Shown here one piece after another: positions 22,363 to 27,839 of a stretch of DNA of 34,833 bases. A program made the position numbers and the translations under genes. Within the stretch, counting starts at the first letter, position 1. Each line of letters starts with the position of its first letter. The DNA lies in the NCBI GenBank assembly GCA_947385105.1, contig CANDJR010000003.1, positions 1 through 34,833 of the forward strand. The letters are read 5' to 3'. The notes beneath the pieces were generated by a model. That model ran no database searches. It was not told the DNA's origin and saw nothing but the letters and a program-made list of their open reading frames with translations. Source of the stretch: an uncultured Eubacterium sp. GTDB taxonomy: Bacteria; Bacillota; Clostridia; Lachnospirales; Lachnospiraceae.

Positions 22363-23811
22363 TTATAAAGTAGCTGCTGGTGTAGAAACAGTCTTTGGAA
22401 CGTCAATTACACCCAATTTCTGGTAATTGCCAACCCAAGTTTTTGTCTTCTTATCGCCAGCTTTGCGGATGTAAACTTGCTGATCATCTGCAATGCCTTT
22501 CAAAGTAACAGTTTTTGTAGAAGCAATCTTTGTTGCCTTTGCATCAGCTGGTACACTAGTAGCATCTTTTGCTACTAATACAACTTCATAGGCAAGTTTA
22601 CCATTGTTTGTAATTTTAAGAACGTTGTTTTTACCTGCTTTAGCATATTCAACCTTCAAAACAGATGCTGTATCAGCTGTAGCTTCTTTTAAAACAGCTT
22701 CAGCGACACCTTTTCCGCCGTATTCTTTTGTTTCACCAGCTGGTGGAGTAGGTGCTGTATCTTTTGTATTGCCAGCAGTTAACAAACCAGCTTCAAAATC
22801 AGCAGGTTTTTCAATTGCTACGCGTGTCCATTTAGAAGCAGCTTTCTTACCTGCTGTTGCCTGTGCACGTACTTCAACAGTTGCAGTTTTTTCAGTGCTA
22901 GCATTAACAGATTCTAACAGAGCTTCAACAGTAATTACTTTCTTGTCAGCGTTCTTTACAGCTTGGTTTGCGTTATCTTTATCAAATTTCAAACCTGTAG
23001 CAGCAGCAACGCGGTATTCGCTTGCCTTAGGCAGAGTAACAGTTGATTTTGTATAATCAACAGCAACAGCTGGTCCTTTTGCACGAGCAGCAATATTTAA
23101 TTTTGCTTCTTTGCCTGGCAGCTTAGCAGCTTCATATACTTTTACAGACTGTTCGCCATATTTCAGAGCCTCATCGCTCTGTGTAGACAAGGTAGCGGAA
23201 GGAGCAGCAGCTGTTCCAGATGTGCCTCTTGGTCTGATATATAAAGTAGCGCCTTCATGCTGGTATTGTGTGAAATCTACTACTTTGCTATTTGCATAGA
23301 GATTTGCCCAAGTGCCATAGGTTGTTCTATATTCATATGCATCGCTGTCAACTGCTTTTGCAGCTGTTTTAGCAGCAGAAGCACTTGCACCTGTACCAAC
23401 CTTTAATTCAGCAGTTGAAGCATCGAATACAGCACTGGTAGCTTTATCTACTGCAGGAATTTTAACAACAGATACGCTGTCTTTTGCATTTGCTGTCAAT
23501 ACAAGATAATTATCTTTTGTATTGTTTAATTTAGACAAATCAATTGTCTGAGCGCCAGTTCCATCATAAATATCCCAAGTAGCTACAGTAACAGCTTTTG
23601 TTTTTGCATTTACTTTACCTACACCAACGAGAAGCTCGCCGTTTGAGCCGGTAGCTGTTAACTGCTGTTTTGTTGTATCAATACTTACAGCTGAAACGCC
23701 TGAATCTGCGAACGCTCCATCTGCTGCTTTTGCAATAACTGGAGCTGTAATCAAACATACTGCTGCAGCTGCTGCAAACACTGTCCCTTGTAATACTTTC
23801 TTCAATTGCAT
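22363..23811 (-). CDS. secreted surface protein, left paralogue (unknown family)
   Basis: A 482-residue exported protein. It has a Sec signal peptide (MQLKKVLQGTVFAAAAAVCL, cleavage near AKAADG). The mature part is rich in Ala, Lys, Thr and Val, has no Cys, and reads as a series of beta-rich repeats (for example IDLSKLNNTKDNYLVL and VDFTQYQHEGATLYIRPR). No LPXTG, SLH or choline-binding motif is seen, so how it attaches is unknown. Its paralogue at 26385 shares the signal peptide, LPGKEAK, NIAARAKGPAV, KKAASKWTR and the tail TKTWVG, LGVIDVPK. The frame is open further upstream to 24003, but the Shine-Dalgarno ACAAGGAGG and the signal peptide fix the start at 23811. A long, structured leader with SigD promoters precedes it. 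An S-layer-like or extracellular-matrix role is possible. Confidence 0.85.
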   Translation of the reverse strand: MQLKKVLQGTVFAAAAAVCLITAPVIAKAADGAFADSGVSAVSIDTTKQQLTATGSNGELLVGVGKVNAKTKAVTVATWDIYDGTGAQTIDLSKLNNTKDNYLVLTANAKDSVSVVKIPAVDKATSAVFDASTAELKVGTGASASAAKTAAKAVDSDAYEYRTTYGTWANLYANSKVVDFTQYQHEGATLYIRPRGTSGTAAAPSATLSTQSDEALKYGEQSVKVYEAAKLPGKEAKLNIAARAKGPAVAVDYTKSTVTLPKASEYRVAAATGLKFDKDNANQAVKNADKKVITVEALLESVNASTEKTATVEVRAQATAGKKAASKWTRVAIEKPADFEAGLLTAGNTKDTAPTPPAGETKEYGGKGVAEAVLKEATADTASVLKVEYAKAGKNNVLKITNNGKLAYEVVLVAKDATSVPADAKATKIASTKTVTLKGIADDQQVYIRKAGDKKTKTWVGNYQKLGVIDVPKTVSTPAATL

Positions 23812-24070
23812 AATTGAATACCTCCTTGTAATTTTGTATGAACATTTTACATCCCTGTTCCCACACTTGCGGGGATTCTCTGCCCGGGCTTCTGACACTT
23901 TACATGTAATAACAAATGAGCCTGCCCAAAGCATAATAGATATGGAATAGCAGGTAACCTTTTGTATGATCCATATCTTATAAAAGCGCAACAAAACCGA
24001 CAAATAAACTGTACAATTATACTGCGGCTTTTATTCTCATTAAATAAATACCTCCTTGTTTGTTGTGTTT
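23812..24070 (-). promoter_or_regulatory. structured 5' leader of the left surface-protein gene (leader copy L)
   Basis: Homologous to the right leader at 26126-26384, in inverted orientation. On the transcript: an AAAAG-(C)-CGCAG/TTGCGCTTTT stem (24032-23982 region), a 9-bp AGATATGGA/TCCATATCT stem (23978-23938), and a CCCGC/GTGGG hairpin (23873-23860). The last two stems of the right copy pair with different bases. ACAGGGATGT (23858-23849) matches the CsrA consensus core ACARGGAUGU, and ACAAGGAGGT (23829-23820) is the Shine-Dalgarno; their GGA cores are 29 nt apart. Confidence 0.75.
24017..24040 (-). CDS. leader mini-ORF MRIKAAV
   Basis: A 7-codon ORF (MRIKAAV, stop TAA) whose ATG shares a base with the stop of the preceding mini-ORF (TAATG) and has AAGGAGG upstream. 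The right leader has the counterpart MRVKVAAD at 26152. Its codons form the 5' side of the first leader stem, so ribosomes reading it would open that stem. Small size makes this a candidate, not a proven gene. Confidence 0.5.
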   Translation of the reverse strand: MRIKAAV

Positions 24071-24099
24071 GTGTATCTGCTATAAGCATCTATACGCAT
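24040..24099 (-). CDS. FlgM-like N-terminal mini-ORF (19 codons)
   Basis: This encodes MRIDAYSRYTNTTNKEVFI and stops. The first six residues are identical to FlgM (MRIDAYNQIANLYNTT), and the first 18 nt match flgM exactly. It follows a perfect SigD promoter by 20 nt. It looks like the captured 5' end of a flgM gene acting as a promoter-plus-leader module; its stop overlaps the next mini-ORF. No upstream Shine-Dalgarno is obvious. Confidence 0.5.
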   Translation of the reverse strand: MRIDAYSRYTNTTNKEVFI

Positions 24100-24119
24100 T
24101 TTTGCTTCTTCTGACTATT

Positions 24120-24146
24120 TTATCGGCTGCTTTATCAAATAGTTTA
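24120..24146 (-). promoter_or_regulatory. SigD (sigma-28) promoter P1 of the left surface-protein gene
   Basis: On the minus strand TAAA (24146-24143), 16 nt, then CCGATAA (24126-24120), with G before the -10: a perfect TAAA-N15-GCCGATAA match. The leader from here to the start codon is about 300 nt. Confidence 0.85.
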
Positions 24147-24247
24147 ACATTCTTTGCTATTATTTTACAGCTTTTAAATCAAATAGCTTACTTTAGACAT
24201 TTATGCAAAACTACAAAACACAATACCTCCATGTAATAAAGTAATAA

Positions 24248-24268
24248 TTACAAGCATTCGATGCGCAT
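24248..24268 (-). CDS. second FlgM-like mini-ORF (MRIECL)
   Basis: A 6-codon ORF (MRIECL, stop TAA) in the same position relative to promoter P2 as MRIDAY is to P1. The surrounding AAGCAAARAATGCGYAT sequence is shared between the two modules, indicating a tandem duplication. An ACATGGAGGT ribosome-site-like element follows ~20 nt later. Confidence 0.4.
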   Translation of the reverse strand: MRIECL

Positions 24269-24290
24269 TCTTTGCTTATACTTATTATAG

Positions 24291-24317
24291 ATATCGACCG
24301 TAATATAAAAAACTTTA
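24291..24317 (-). promoter_or_regulatory. SigD (sigma-28) promoter P2 of the left surface-protein gene
   Basis: On the minus strand TAAA (24317-24314), 16 nt, then TCGATAT (24297-24291): one mismatch to the consensus -10. It lies about 170 nt upstream of P1, giving a leader of about 470 nt. Confidence 0.7.
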
Positions 24318-24526
24318 GCTTTATTTTTGCGTTTTTATAAAATTTTCCAAAAAAATGTTAACTTCTTGTTATAATAAAAAAATATTTATATTATTATTAT
24401 AGTTTTAAAAATGTATAAGTGATTTATTTATGACTGCATAGATTAAAATCGTAACATATGATATTCTATAAATTGAACAAAGAAAAATACAATATTTTTC
24501 AAAAATTATTATGTATTTTTCTGATT

Positions 24527-24550
24527 TTAGCGACTATTTGGCGACTATTT
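24527..24550 (+). repeat. left inverted repeat flanking the recombinase gene
   Basis: TTAGCGACTATTT (24527-24539), followed after one base by a second GCGACTATTT (24541-24550). The 13-mer recurs in inverted orientation at 26012-26024 on the other side of the recombinase gene. It ends 10 nt from the recombinase stop codon. It could be a recombination core site or an arm-type binding site. Confidence 0.7.
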
Positions 24551-24560
24551 AAACCTTCTT

Positions 24561-25853
24561 CTATTCTTTATTCAGCATGCATTCTAAAATATTTGCTGTT
24601 TCTTGTTCGCTTTCTTCATAAGAATGGATGTAATACTTCATAGTTGTTATCATATCAGAGTGTCCCAATTTTTTGGATATTGTTTTTGTATCAACTTTAT
24701 TTGAACGAACTAATAAGGATGCATTGGTATGCCTTAATGCATGCAGACTTAGGATGGGCAGTTGTTCTTTTTCCGTTGCTTTCCGATTATATTCTTTAAT
24801 TAGTTTATGAAATTTGTTATAAGGGGTATTTATATGCATAATATTACCATCGGATTGGATGAATAACCAATTTTTACCTTTCCATTTGCTGTCGAGTCTT
24901 TTCTTATATAAATTCTGTTCCCGCTGATATTCTTCAAGCACCTGTATCACAGATTGAGGTAAAGTTACGGTTCGTATAGAACCTTTTGTTTTTGGTTCTT
25001 TTATTACAATTTTACCTTTTATGTAACATGCAGACTGCTTGATATGAATTTTACTATGCTCGAAATCAATATGATGCCATTCCAATGCTAAAATCTCCCC
25101 TTTACGAAGTCCGCCAAAGATCGCTATCTGAAAGAAAGCCCGGTACTGAATTTGCATGACATATGTATCTGCATCCTTTATTGCAGATATTGAATTTTCG
25201 GCTGATGGCTGTGGCTTAAATAATTCACACCTTTCATCCAGAAATTTCAAAAAACACCGGGTCTGTTCTACTGTAAAATACTTGATCTTTTCTCTTTGTC
25301 TGGATAGTTTTGGAATCTTTGCTTTATGGCAAGGATTACTGTCAATTAATTCCCAATGTACAGCAGTGGACAGGATGGAAGAAAGAATTATTTTGAATCG
25401 GCAAATACTGCCATAAGAATAACCACCTGGTTTTCCGTCATGCCTTGCTCCATCCTGTATGAGAGATATATAAAATTTTTCAATATCATATGGCCTGATT
25501 TTACTTAGCTTTATCTGGCCCAGGGATGGAATGATGATTTGTTCGATTACATGAAGATATGCATGAAATGTTGTTCTTTCCAACTGGATTTCTGCAAAAG
25601 CTGCAATCCATTCCTGTACAAATTTTTCAAGCGTTATTTTTTCACCCCGCATATAGTTTCCGCTTTTTACTTTTCCCTCAAATTCAAATACAAATTTATG
25701 CAGTGCCTTTTCCTGCTGTTTTTTCGTCATATACGGATCTGGTACATAAGTTGTAGTTTTCCTAATCTTCTTTCCATTGCTGTCATAACCGTTAGAAACT
25801 TCAATCTTGTAACTGATTCCTTTTTTGTTTTGCATTGTTCTTACGTATGCCAT
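24561..25853 (-). CDS. tyrosine recombinase/integrase (phage/Tn916 type)
   Basis: A 430-residue site-specific recombinase. The layout is that of phage and conjugative-transposon integrases: an N-terminal arm-binding region (about 1-65, YKIEVSNGYDSNGKKIRKTT), a core-binding helical domain (about 70-190, starting TLEKFVQEW) and the catalytic domain. Catalytic residues are all present: R250 (GGLRKGE), K288 (EPKTKG), H371-x-x-R374 (HALRH), H398 (LGHSD) and the nucleophile Y408 (KYYIH). GGAG precedes the ATG. There are no excisionase, relaxase or phage genes around it. It sits between two divergent surface-protein genes and is bracketed by 13-bp inverted repeats. It may be a domesticated invertase or the remnant of an element; the intact active site argues that it works. 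Confidence 0.93.
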   Translation of the reverse strand: MAYVRTMQNKKGISYKIEVSNGYDSNGKKIRKTTTYVPDPYMTKKQQEKALHKFVFEFEGKVKSGNYMRGEKITLEKFVQEWIAAFAEIQLERTTFHAYLHVIEQIIIPSLGQIKLSKIRPYDIEKFYISLIQDGARHDGKPGGYSYGSICRFKIILSSILSTAVHWELIDSNPCHKAKIPKLSRQREKIKYFTVEQTRCFLKFLDERCELFKPQPSAENSISAIKDADTYVMQIQYRAFFQIAIFGGLRKGEILALEWHHIDFEHSKIHIKQSACYIKGKIVIKEPKTKGSIRTVTLPQSVIQVLEEYQREQNLYKKRLDSKWKGKNWLFIQSDGNIMHINTPYNKFHKLIKEYNRKATEKEQLPILSLHALRHTNASLLVRSNKVDTKTISKKLGHSDMITTMKYYIHSYEESEQETANILECMLNKE

Positions 25854-26011
25854 TTTTTTCTCCTTTGTAAATAAATAATTGTTTATTTTAAGTCATTGCC
25901 TATGAAAAATCACTTTAATATGAAAGAATTGTGATTTCTTAAAAAATTATAATACATATCATGTAAATAGTCTGTTATAGCTAAAATAATGATTCATAAT
26001 ACTAATTTTAA

Positions 26012-26032
26012 AAATAGTCGCTAATTAGCCGC
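26012..26032 (-). repeat. right inverted repeat flanking the recombinase gene
   Basis: AAATAGTCGCTAA (26012-26024) is the exact reverse complement of the left 13-mer TTAGCGACTATTT. It is followed by TTAGCCGC, so a degenerate second copy (GCGGCTAATTA on the minus strand) sits next to it. It lies ~160 nt upstream of the recombinase start. Confidence 0.7.
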
Positions 26033-26050
26033 TTTATTTTACATATGTAT

Positions 26051-26094
26051 CAAAAAATCCATTTATATATACGATAGTATTTAACTAATATCGT
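26051..26094 (+). promoter_or_regulatory. weak SigD-like promoter and dyad upstream of the right surface-protein gene
   Basis: CAAA (26051-26054), 16 nt, then ACGATAG (26071-26077): 3 of 4 and 5 of 7 matches to TAAA/CCGATAT. ACGATA and TATCGT (26089-26094) form a dyad over and after the -10. It is clearly weaker than the two promoters of the left paralogue. Confidence 0.35.
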
Positions 26095-26125
26095 ACATTT
26101 TTCGTGTTTTTATCATATTGTGAGT

Positions 26126-26384
26126 TGAATCAAACAACAGGCATGTTTTTAATGAGAGTAAAAGTTGCAGCTGATTAGACGCCTTACCCGGCTGTGGTGC
26201 TGCACTTTTATAAGATATGGACGATACAAGAAATTACATGTTTCTCCATATCTTACGATGCTTTGGGCAGGCTTATTTGTTATATACATGTAAAGTGCCG
26301 GATGCCCGGGCAGCGAACCGCTTGTTGATACAGGCGGACAAGGATGTAAACTGTTGAAACAAAATTACAAGGAGGTATTCAATT
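26126..26384 (+). promoter_or_regulatory. structured 5' leader of the right surface-protein gene (leader copy R)
   Basis: Inverted counterpart of 23812-24070. On the transcript: AAAAG-(T)-TGCAGC/GCTGCACTTTT (26160-26209), a 10-bp AAGATATGGA/TCCATATCTT stem (26212-26254), and an 8-bp CCGCTTGT/ACAGGCGG hairpin with loop TGAT (26318-26337). Between them is a highly conserved stretch around TTTGGGCAGGCT and GCCCGGGCAG. ACAAGGATGT (26338-26347) is a perfect CsrA consensus core and ACAAGGAGGT (26367-26376) is the Shine-Dalgarno, again with 29 nt between GGA cores. The last ~37 nt before and across the ATG are nearly identical in both leaders. Confidence 0.75.
26152..26178 (+). CDS. leader mini-ORF MRVKVAAD
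   Basis: An 8-codon ORF (MRVKVAAD, stop TAG) homologous to MRIKAAV in the left leader and, like it, forming the 5' side of the first leader stem. Its ribosome site is weaker (CAGG instead of AAGGAGG). An in-frame ATG at 26143 could add three residues. Confidence 0.45.
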   Translation: MRVKVAAD

Positions 26385-27839
26385 ATGCAATTGAAAAAAT
26401 TATTACAAGGAACAGTATTTGCTGCTGCTTTAGCAGTATGTACAATGATTGGCGCTGTATACGCAGACGCTGCTACAGGTGAGTTTGCGGATGCTAAGGT
26501 GTCTGTATCAAAGGTTGAAAAAGCAGAGATGTCACTTACCGGCCAAGGAACAAAAGAAATACTTGTCGGCGTAGCAAAAGTAGCAAAAACTGGAAAAGTG
26601 ACAGTATCCAGCTGGGATGTATATGAAGGTACTAATGCAACCGTTGATTTATCTAAATTGAGCAATGTAAAGGATAATTACATTGCAATTAAGGGTGATA
26701 ATGCGGTAAACGACATTCCTGCTATTGTTAAAATTCCATCTGCAGACAAAGCCATTAGTGCAAAATATACGCCGGGTACTGAGAGTGGTGACAAAAAAGA
26801 TGTCGCAGTATTAAAGATTGGTACAGGAGCAAAAGCTTCAGATGCAAAATCAAATGCAGCTGAAGTAACGGCTGCAGGGAGCTTTGAGTACCGTACAGCA
26901 TACAGCAGTGCATGGAAAGATATTGCATCTGAAACTGCTGCTGATAAATTGAATTTAACAAAATATCAGAATCAAGGCGCTACGATATATGTAAGGGCAA
27001 TGGAAAAAACAGTTAAAGAAGCTCCTTCTGCGCAAGGCAAAGAAAAAGTTAGCTACGAAGGTACCGAATACGTAGCATATGAACTGGATGCAAAATTACC
27101 AGGCAAAGAAGCAAAAGTTAACATCCCTGCAAGGGCAAAAGGGCCAGCAGTTAGCGCTGATTATACAAAGGCAACCGTAAAGCTTCCAAAGAACAGTGAG
27201 TATCGTTTAGTTACTTCTACCATACCTGCAGCAAATACAGCAAATGCGACTGCAGCTACAAAAACTGTAGCAGAACTTTTAGGTGAATCCAATGCTACAG
27301 GTTGGCTGGAAGTTCGTACTGCACCACAAAAAGACAAGAAAGCTGCATCCAAGTGGACGCGTCTTAACTTGATTAAACCTGCAGAGTTAGCTGCTGCAAA
27401 TATAAAGGCAGGGGATGCGCCTAAGACAACTACAGCAACACCAGAAACAACAGCAAAAGGTGAGAAAGTAGAATATGGCGGAGACGGCGTTGCAAAGGCT
27501 GAAGTTAAGGAAGGTGCATCAGGCAGCGAAAAGAATATCATGGATATTTCCTATAAACCATCCGGAAAAGCTTATGTCCTTACTATGAAGAACAATGGTG
27601 ACAAAACATATGAAGTTACAATAACTGCTCAAAAGACAACAAAACCTGCAGATACTGCAAAAGCAACCAAAATTGCACCTGGTAAAACAGTTACTTTGAA
27701 GGGTATACAAGATAATAACTACGTTTTTATCCGTGTAGCTGGCGATAAGAGAACAAAGACTTGGGTTGGCGCATTTACCGGGTTAGGTGTTATCGATGTT
27801 CCTAAGGTAATTGTTGGTACAAAAGAAGCTACATCTTAA
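26385..27839 (+). CDS. secreted surface protein, right paralogue (unknown family)
   Basis: A 484-residue exported protein with a Sec signal peptide (MQLKKLLQGTVFAAALAVCT, cleavage near VYADAA) and a Cys-free mature part rich in Ala, Lys and Thr. It is a full-length paralogue of the gene at 22363: beta-rich units around VDLSKLSNVKDNYIAI and LNLTKYQNQGATIYVR, then LPGKEAKVNIPARAKGPAV, KKAASKWTR, VEYGGDGVAKAEV and the tail RTKTWVG, LGVIDVPK. Identity is high at both ends and lower in the middle. No wall-anchor motif is seen. It is a single-gene transcript ending at a strong terminator. The function is not known; abundant surface-layer or adhesive material is a guess from composition and the elaborate leader. 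Confidence 0.85.
   Translation: MQLKKLLQGTVFAAALAVCTMIGAVYADAATGEFADAKVSVSKVEKAEMSLTGQGTKEILVGVAKVAKTGKVTVSSWDVYEGTNATVDLSKLSNVKDNYIAIKGDNAVNDIPAIVKIPSADKAISAKYTPGTESGDKKDVAVLKIGTGAKASDAKSNAAEVTAAGSFEYRTAYSSAWKDIASETAADKLNLTKYQNQGATIYVRAMEKTVKEAPSAQGKEKVSYEGTEYVAYELDAKLPGKEAKVNIPARAKGPAVSADYTKATVKLPKNSEYRLVTSTIPAANTANATAATKTVAELLGESNATGWLEVRTAPQKDKKAASKWTRLNLIKPAELAAANIKAGDAPKTTTATPETTAKGEKVEYGGDGVAKAEVKEGASGSEKNIMDISYKPSGKAYVLTMKNNGDKTYEVTITAQKTTKPADTAKATKIAPGKTVTLKGIQDNNYVFIRVAGDKRTKTWVGAFTGLGVIDVPKVIVGTKEATS

Follow-up and report, generated by a model that had tools for sequence, protein, structure and literature searches.

A candidate promoter-inversion switch with its own phage-type tyrosine recombinase between paralogous secreted-protein genes of an uncultured Eubacterium

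A tyrosine recombinase gene bracketed by short inverted repeats lies in the stretch of 34,833 nucleotides analysed here (the window, from an uncultured Eubacterium sp., a gut-type member of the Lachnospiraceae), which raises the question of what DNA this enzyme moves, and whether the repeats are crossover points of a self-inverting cassette or arm-type sites to which the recombinase binds. Both possibilities had been put forward in an earlier note made from the sequence alone. The repeats were found as described there: TTAGCGACTATTT at 24527-24539 (+) has an exact inverted copy at 26012-26024, and these 13-bp sequences bracket the gene at the distances given, 10 nt from the stop codon on the left and about 160 nt from the start codon on the right. 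The second unit reported at the left site (GCGACTATTT, 24541-24550, 11 bp start to start) and the degenerate second copy at the right site (GCGGCTAATT) were also recovered, giving two arms of 22 nt (24529-24550 and 26012-26033) that are 86% complementary and form an imperfect inverted repeat. A lone 13-bp inverted pair is at chance level in the window and unremarkable alone: two exact inverted 13-mers no more than 1.6 kb apart occur there, for a mean of about 1.1 in first-order Markov shuffles. The value of the repeat comes from its doublet structure and its conservation, not from the 13-mer match itself.

The gene between the repeats is an intact tyrosine recombinase, as the note had stated. 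The ORF encodes 430 aa with matches to PF00589 (3.8e-23) and PF14659, and residues R250, K285, H371, R374, H398 and Y408 are invariant among 16 relatives. In the genus, close orthologs were found only in two other species, each represented by one MAG: G307, an uncultured Eubacterium sp. (74% identical), and G299, an uncultured Lachnospiraceae (71% identical). The three recombinases form one fully supported clade, and both orthologs adjoin slp genes, the secreted-protein genes described below. The closest other integrase of the genus (42%, genome G304) has phage-type genes and an excisionase-like ORF as neighbours instead of slp genes, and was set aside. The first scan detected no viral relatives, and a profile scan gave one partial match (31%). 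The nearest solved structures are 3nkh and the 'Int protein' entries 6en0/6emz, which we take to be Tn1549 Int. The structure model of the recombinase is poor (pLDDT 40); its N-terminal residues 2-63 were modelled as strand-strand-strand-helix, with a pLDDT there of only about 50. Pfam gave no confident arm-binding domain, and PF14657 matched only one of the 16 relatives, weakly (E 0.43).

Arm-type sites are made of head-to-tail units one helical turn apart, and core sites of inverted half-sites around a short overlap. When the six arms of the three genomes were aligned, the unit AGCGACTATTT was present twice in each. The AGCGACTATTT doublet occurs twice per genome, once per strand, in the window genome, G299 and G307, and the same two inverted doublet pairs flank the orthologous recombinase in G307 and G299. 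It was absent from all six other genus members tested, none of which has the orthologous recombinase gene; no further match was found elsewhere in the family with up to two mismatches (397 sampled genomes), and viral contigs contained no exact match. An 11-bp-spaced direct repeat directly follows the int stop codon in 12 of 17 related integrases, a set that includes the window, G307 and G299 enzymes (p <= 0.013 per locus versus shuffles), and several of these 12 repeats contain a TAGTC or GACTA motif. The left repeat of the window occupies this typical post-stop position. The 11-bp head-to-tail doublets, their conservation in three species and the post-stop position shared with most related integrases argue that the reported repeats are probably arm-type binding sites rather than crossover points, and this part of the earlier proposal is therefore well supported.

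The recombinase gene sits between two divergent paralogs, slpA and slpB, which are 53% identical and both encode proteins with signal peptides (Table 1). Neither protein matched a Pfam or NCBIfam family. The structure model of SlpB is all-beta (pLDDT 69.5), and comparison of the slp model with solved structures returned only a generic beta-sandwich (best Z 7.3), which is uninformative. Among the 98 relatives searched, the slp protein family was found in four genus members only. A second slp-like secreted family, with its own sigma-28-like promoter, was observed beside the slp genes in several genus members (L048 8910, L049 8022, L056 362).

Table 1. Coordinates of the features of the locus in the window
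Feature	Position	Strand	Basis
slpA, secreted paralogous protein (signal peptide, all-beta domains), promoter-linked (ON) position	22363..23811	-	ORF; 53% identical to slpB
slpA 5' leader region, homologous to slpB leader	23812..24027	-	left/right alignment
Left putative crossover core TTTAATGAGAATAAAAG, holds leader ATG 24040-24038	24028..24044	-	start of inverted left/right similarity
Predicted invertible segment, ~2.1 kb: promoter block, arm site, recombinase, arm site	24038..26155	.	inferred from inverted cores and layout conserved in 3 species
Ribosome-binding site AAGGAGG, promoter-side edge of core	24051..24057	-	kept in 3 species up to core
Sigma-28-like promoter TAAA-N15-GCCGATAA, toward slpA	24120..24146	-	exact match to consensus used
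Second sigma-28-like promoter TAAA-N15-GTCGATAT	24291..24317	-	one mismatch; position conserved in G307 and G299
Left arm-type site, AGCGACTATTT GGCGACTATTT, two 11-bp units	24529..24550	+	doublet, conservation, arm alignment
Tyrosine recombinase, phage-integrase family	24561..25853	-	Pfam; PHROG_1 integrase over residues 4-424; orthologs in G307 and G299
Right arm-type site, AGCGGCTAATT AGCGACTATTT	26012..26033	-	inverted match, conservation, arm alignment
Right putative crossover core TTTAATGAGAGTAAAAG, holds leader ATG 26152-26154	26148..26164	+	inverted left/right match; no ribosome-binding site in front
slpB 5' leader region, homologous to slpA leader	26165..26384	+	left/right alignment
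slpB, secreted paralogous protein, no promoter block in assembly (OFF position)	26385..27839	+	ORF; promoter scan

Two sigma-28-like promoters and a ribosome-binding site form a promoter block between slpA and the left arm site, and this block is present on the slpA side only. The same sigma-28-like element, with one mismatch, also precedes the window's flagellin gene (9431-9405), and an exact sigma-28-like promoter is found at L046 13960-13986. Upstream of slpB no sigma-28-like match with one mismatch or fewer was found; slpB could have a weak promoter of its own within its leader. The promoter block is kept in the three species up to AACAAGGAGGTATT, after which the sequences diverge at the core. 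A match to the ribosome-binding-site and core pattern in G308 proved to belong to an unrelated protease-like gene and was discarded. The block itself is a tandem duplication of a sigma-28-like promoter, a conserved ATGCGYAT-ATGCTT stretch and GGAGGTATT (window 24050-24330, L046 13950-14265, L047 1836-2132); in G307, a TGAG resembling a relic core site follows its inner copy. Inverted repeats (AAGATATGGA...TCCATATCTT) are conserved in both slp leaders (23812-24020 and 26165-26384), as is the stretch GGGCAGGC/GCCCGGGC; these leaders are possibly structured 5' UTRs. No Rfam family matched the window at gathering scores, and no known riboswitch family was recognized in the conserved leader.

The similarity between the slpA and slpB sides begins abruptly, in inverted orientation, at TTTAATGAGA (24044 and 26148), and inward of TTTAATGAGA the two sides are unrelated. 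The sigma-28-like promoters lie between the two inverted cores (24044-24028, minus strand, and 26148-26164, plus strand). In the window the core belongs to a 43-nt inverted match that none of 60 shuffles equalled. The equivalent core of G299, GTATTCATTGAGA, is a 25-nt inverted match, and one of 60 shuffles was as good. The promoter-side core of G307 (ATTATTTTATGAGG) and its slp-side core are too short for significance alone; the best inverted match of that locus lies elsewhere and was reached by 19 of 60 shuffles. Each of the three species thus has a core sequence of its own at the matching functional position. The TTTAATGAGA cores are the putative crossover points.

These features together suggest that the locus is probably a promoter-inversion (phase-variation) switch that is self-contained: its segment, about 2.1 kb long, carries its own phage-type tyrosine recombinase. 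This reading rests on the linkage of the recombinase to the slp family in three species, the inverted arm doublets, the matching cores in inverted orientation, the presence of the promoter block on a single side, the opposite states of that block among relatives (in G307 it points away from the slp gene) and the lack of any convincing Xis-like ORF in the segment. The core-binding and catalytic domains of the recombinase would bind sites around TTTAATGAGA at both segment ends, and its N-terminal domain would, by analogy, bind the AGCGACTATTT doublets. Strand exchange at the inverted cores would then flip the segment 24038-26155 and connect the promoter and ribosome-binding site with slpB instead of slpA, the next flip restoring the first state; the junction predicted for the flipped form is AAGGAGGTATTTATTTAATGAGAGTAAAAGTTGCAG. 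Inversion in cells, and the change of expression that would result from it, are what we infer from this arrangement.

The relatives show what would be opposite states of such a switch. In G307 the promoter block points away from the adjacent slp gene. That gene begins at the core and lacks a good ribosome-binding site; a flip would place AAGGAGGTATTATTTT directly before the slp ATG, supplying promoter and ribosome-binding site at normal spacing. The block of G299 is directed toward an slp gene that is 63% identical to slpA, and the leader on the other side is bare. Whether the block faces the slp gene or points away from it thus differs between species; in no single strain or species were both orientations seen, each species being represented by one MAG. 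From GTTTATCTTATGAG rightwards two slp copies of G307 are identical, and to the left of it they are unrelated; this boundary, read from the sequence, is sharp and recombination-like. In G307 (L046 7622 and 12238) the second slp gene is convergent with the first, has the same core start and no good ribosome-binding site, and is a possible extra silent cassette. No slp remnant was detected after the promoter block of G307. At the start of contig C12 of G299 another copy of the G299 leader is linked to different DNA on its upstream side, which fits either a further core site or a rearrangement. Two ORFs with weak matches to Rpn recombination-promoting nucleases flank the G307 locus (L046 9413-10381 and 14655-15569).

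Two observations do not sit easily with a promoter-inversion switch. First, the distance from core to arm is asymmetric, about 485 bp on the left and 115 bp on the right in the window; overall, some 450-500 bp separate the promoter-side core from its arm site, versus 75-115 bp on the other side, which is unusual for an integrase att site. Second, the arm-int-arm unit of G299 is reversed relative to the promoter block (L047 2286-3879) compared with the window (24529-26033) and G307, and core-to-core inversion leaves this reversal unexplained; its cause might be either an old rearrangement or a further inversion, at the arms.

The G299 reversal bears directly on an alternative in which crossover at or next to the AGCGACTATTT doublets flips the arm-int-arm unit only (24527-26033), leaving the promoter unmoved. 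The repeats are indeed inverted and bracket the gene, and the opposite orientation of this unit in G299 is what such a cassette would produce; however, G299 is a different species, and its reversal could be one ancient rearrangement. The doublets have the head-to-tail 11-bp layout of arm-type sites, not the inverted half-sites around an overlap of core sites, and post-stop doublets are common to most related integrases. As arm-to-arm inversion also accounts neither for the inverted cores nor for the one-sided promoter, we consider it unlikely. The self-inverting cassette of the earlier note therefore stands in part: the evidence points to inversion, but crossover is probably not at the 13-bp repeats and more likely at the TTTAATGAGA cores, about 485 and 115 bp further out.

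A phage-type integrase may also simply be left from a small or decayed integrated mobile element, phage or ICE, inserted between the divergent slp genes and bounded by direct-repeat att cores, the 13-bp repeats being the arm sites of attL and attR. Membership of the phage-type integrase family agrees with such an origin, since relatives include the L052 integrase, which has phage-type genes and an excisionase-like ORF next to it, and an inverted placement of the arm sites at either end is also what attL and attR would show. The note had pointed out that direct repeats further out would mark an excisable element: these were looked for outside the arms in the three species, and the best were no better than those of shuffled sequences. 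The matching cores are inverted instead. No tRNA that could serve as target was found in the window, and int is the only convincing ORF of the segment, which contains no cargo and no convincing Xis-like ORF. The same neighbourhood is shared by three species at 71-74% protein identity, which implies long residence. With neither direct-repeat cores nor Xis nor cargo, an ordinary integrated element is disfavoured, and we regard it as quite improbable here.

The window assembly shows one orientation, with the promoter block toward slpA, which would also be seen if an old inversion system had become inactive with its promoter fixed in that direction, and the degenerate right arm unit (GCGGCTAATT) could be taken as decay. 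The recombinase is nevertheless intact, with all catalytic residues in the three species, and arms and cores were kept while the surrounding non-coding DNA diverged; we consider such a fossil very improbable.

A promoter-inversion switch of this kind resembles the Hin/hix flagellar phase variation of Salmonella (PMC9368917; PMC11868660), in that the invertible segment carries both the recombinase gene and a promoter and flipping it chooses which of the alternative surface antigens is made. Hin belongs to the serine recombinases and uses a Fis enhancer, whereas the sole recombinase of the segment described here is of the tyrosine type (PF00589) and has arm-type doublets; in addition, both divergent genes would be fed directly from the present segment, whose core lies at the junction of ribosome-binding site and start codon. 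The predicted system would work like Hin but is outside the Hin family because its recombinase is of the tyrosine type.

In the known tyrosine-recombinase invertible promoters closest to this locus, the enzymes are mostly simple recombinases encoded outside the DNA that flips. The locus shares with the UpaE element of UPEC (PMC6083910), Mycoplasma Vpma (PMC2268961) and gut invertons (PMC11892184) a tyrosine recombinase, short inverted core sites and an output in cell-surface genes; it differs from them in that a phage-type integrase with arm-type sites lies inside the segment. By its sequence organization the locus fits the broad class of tyrosine-recombinase invertible promoters, in which an arm-site integrase inside the segment would be unusual. 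Arm-binding tyrosine recombinases have been surveyed, and integrases that use arm sites are known for driving mobile elements (PMC8138268). The present enzyme shares with those of phages and ICEs its protein family and the 11-bp direct-repeat arm sites past the int stop codon, but there is here no mobile element, no direct-repeat att core and no Xis, and inversion is predicted rather than integration or excision. In literature searches limited to open papers, no case came up of an arm-site integrase encoded within the segment that it inverts; as evidence of novelty this is weak.

We hold as evenly balanced a more specific proposal: a phage-type arm-site integrase would have been domesticated as an invertase inside its own segment, where it moves a flagellar sigma-28 promoter and a ribosome-binding site between alternative secreted proteins by crossover at the junction of ribosome-binding site and start codon, and the silent copy at the same core in G307 would allow multi-gene shuffling. 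If true, an arm-site integrase located beside a genus-specific secreted-protein family and within the DNA that it inverts would clearly exemplify domestication into a phase switch. The segment contains no other genes from core to core, which makes the proposal testable in a plasmid assay. With sigma-28-like promoters on the moving segment, variation of the cell surface would be coupled to the flagellar programme.
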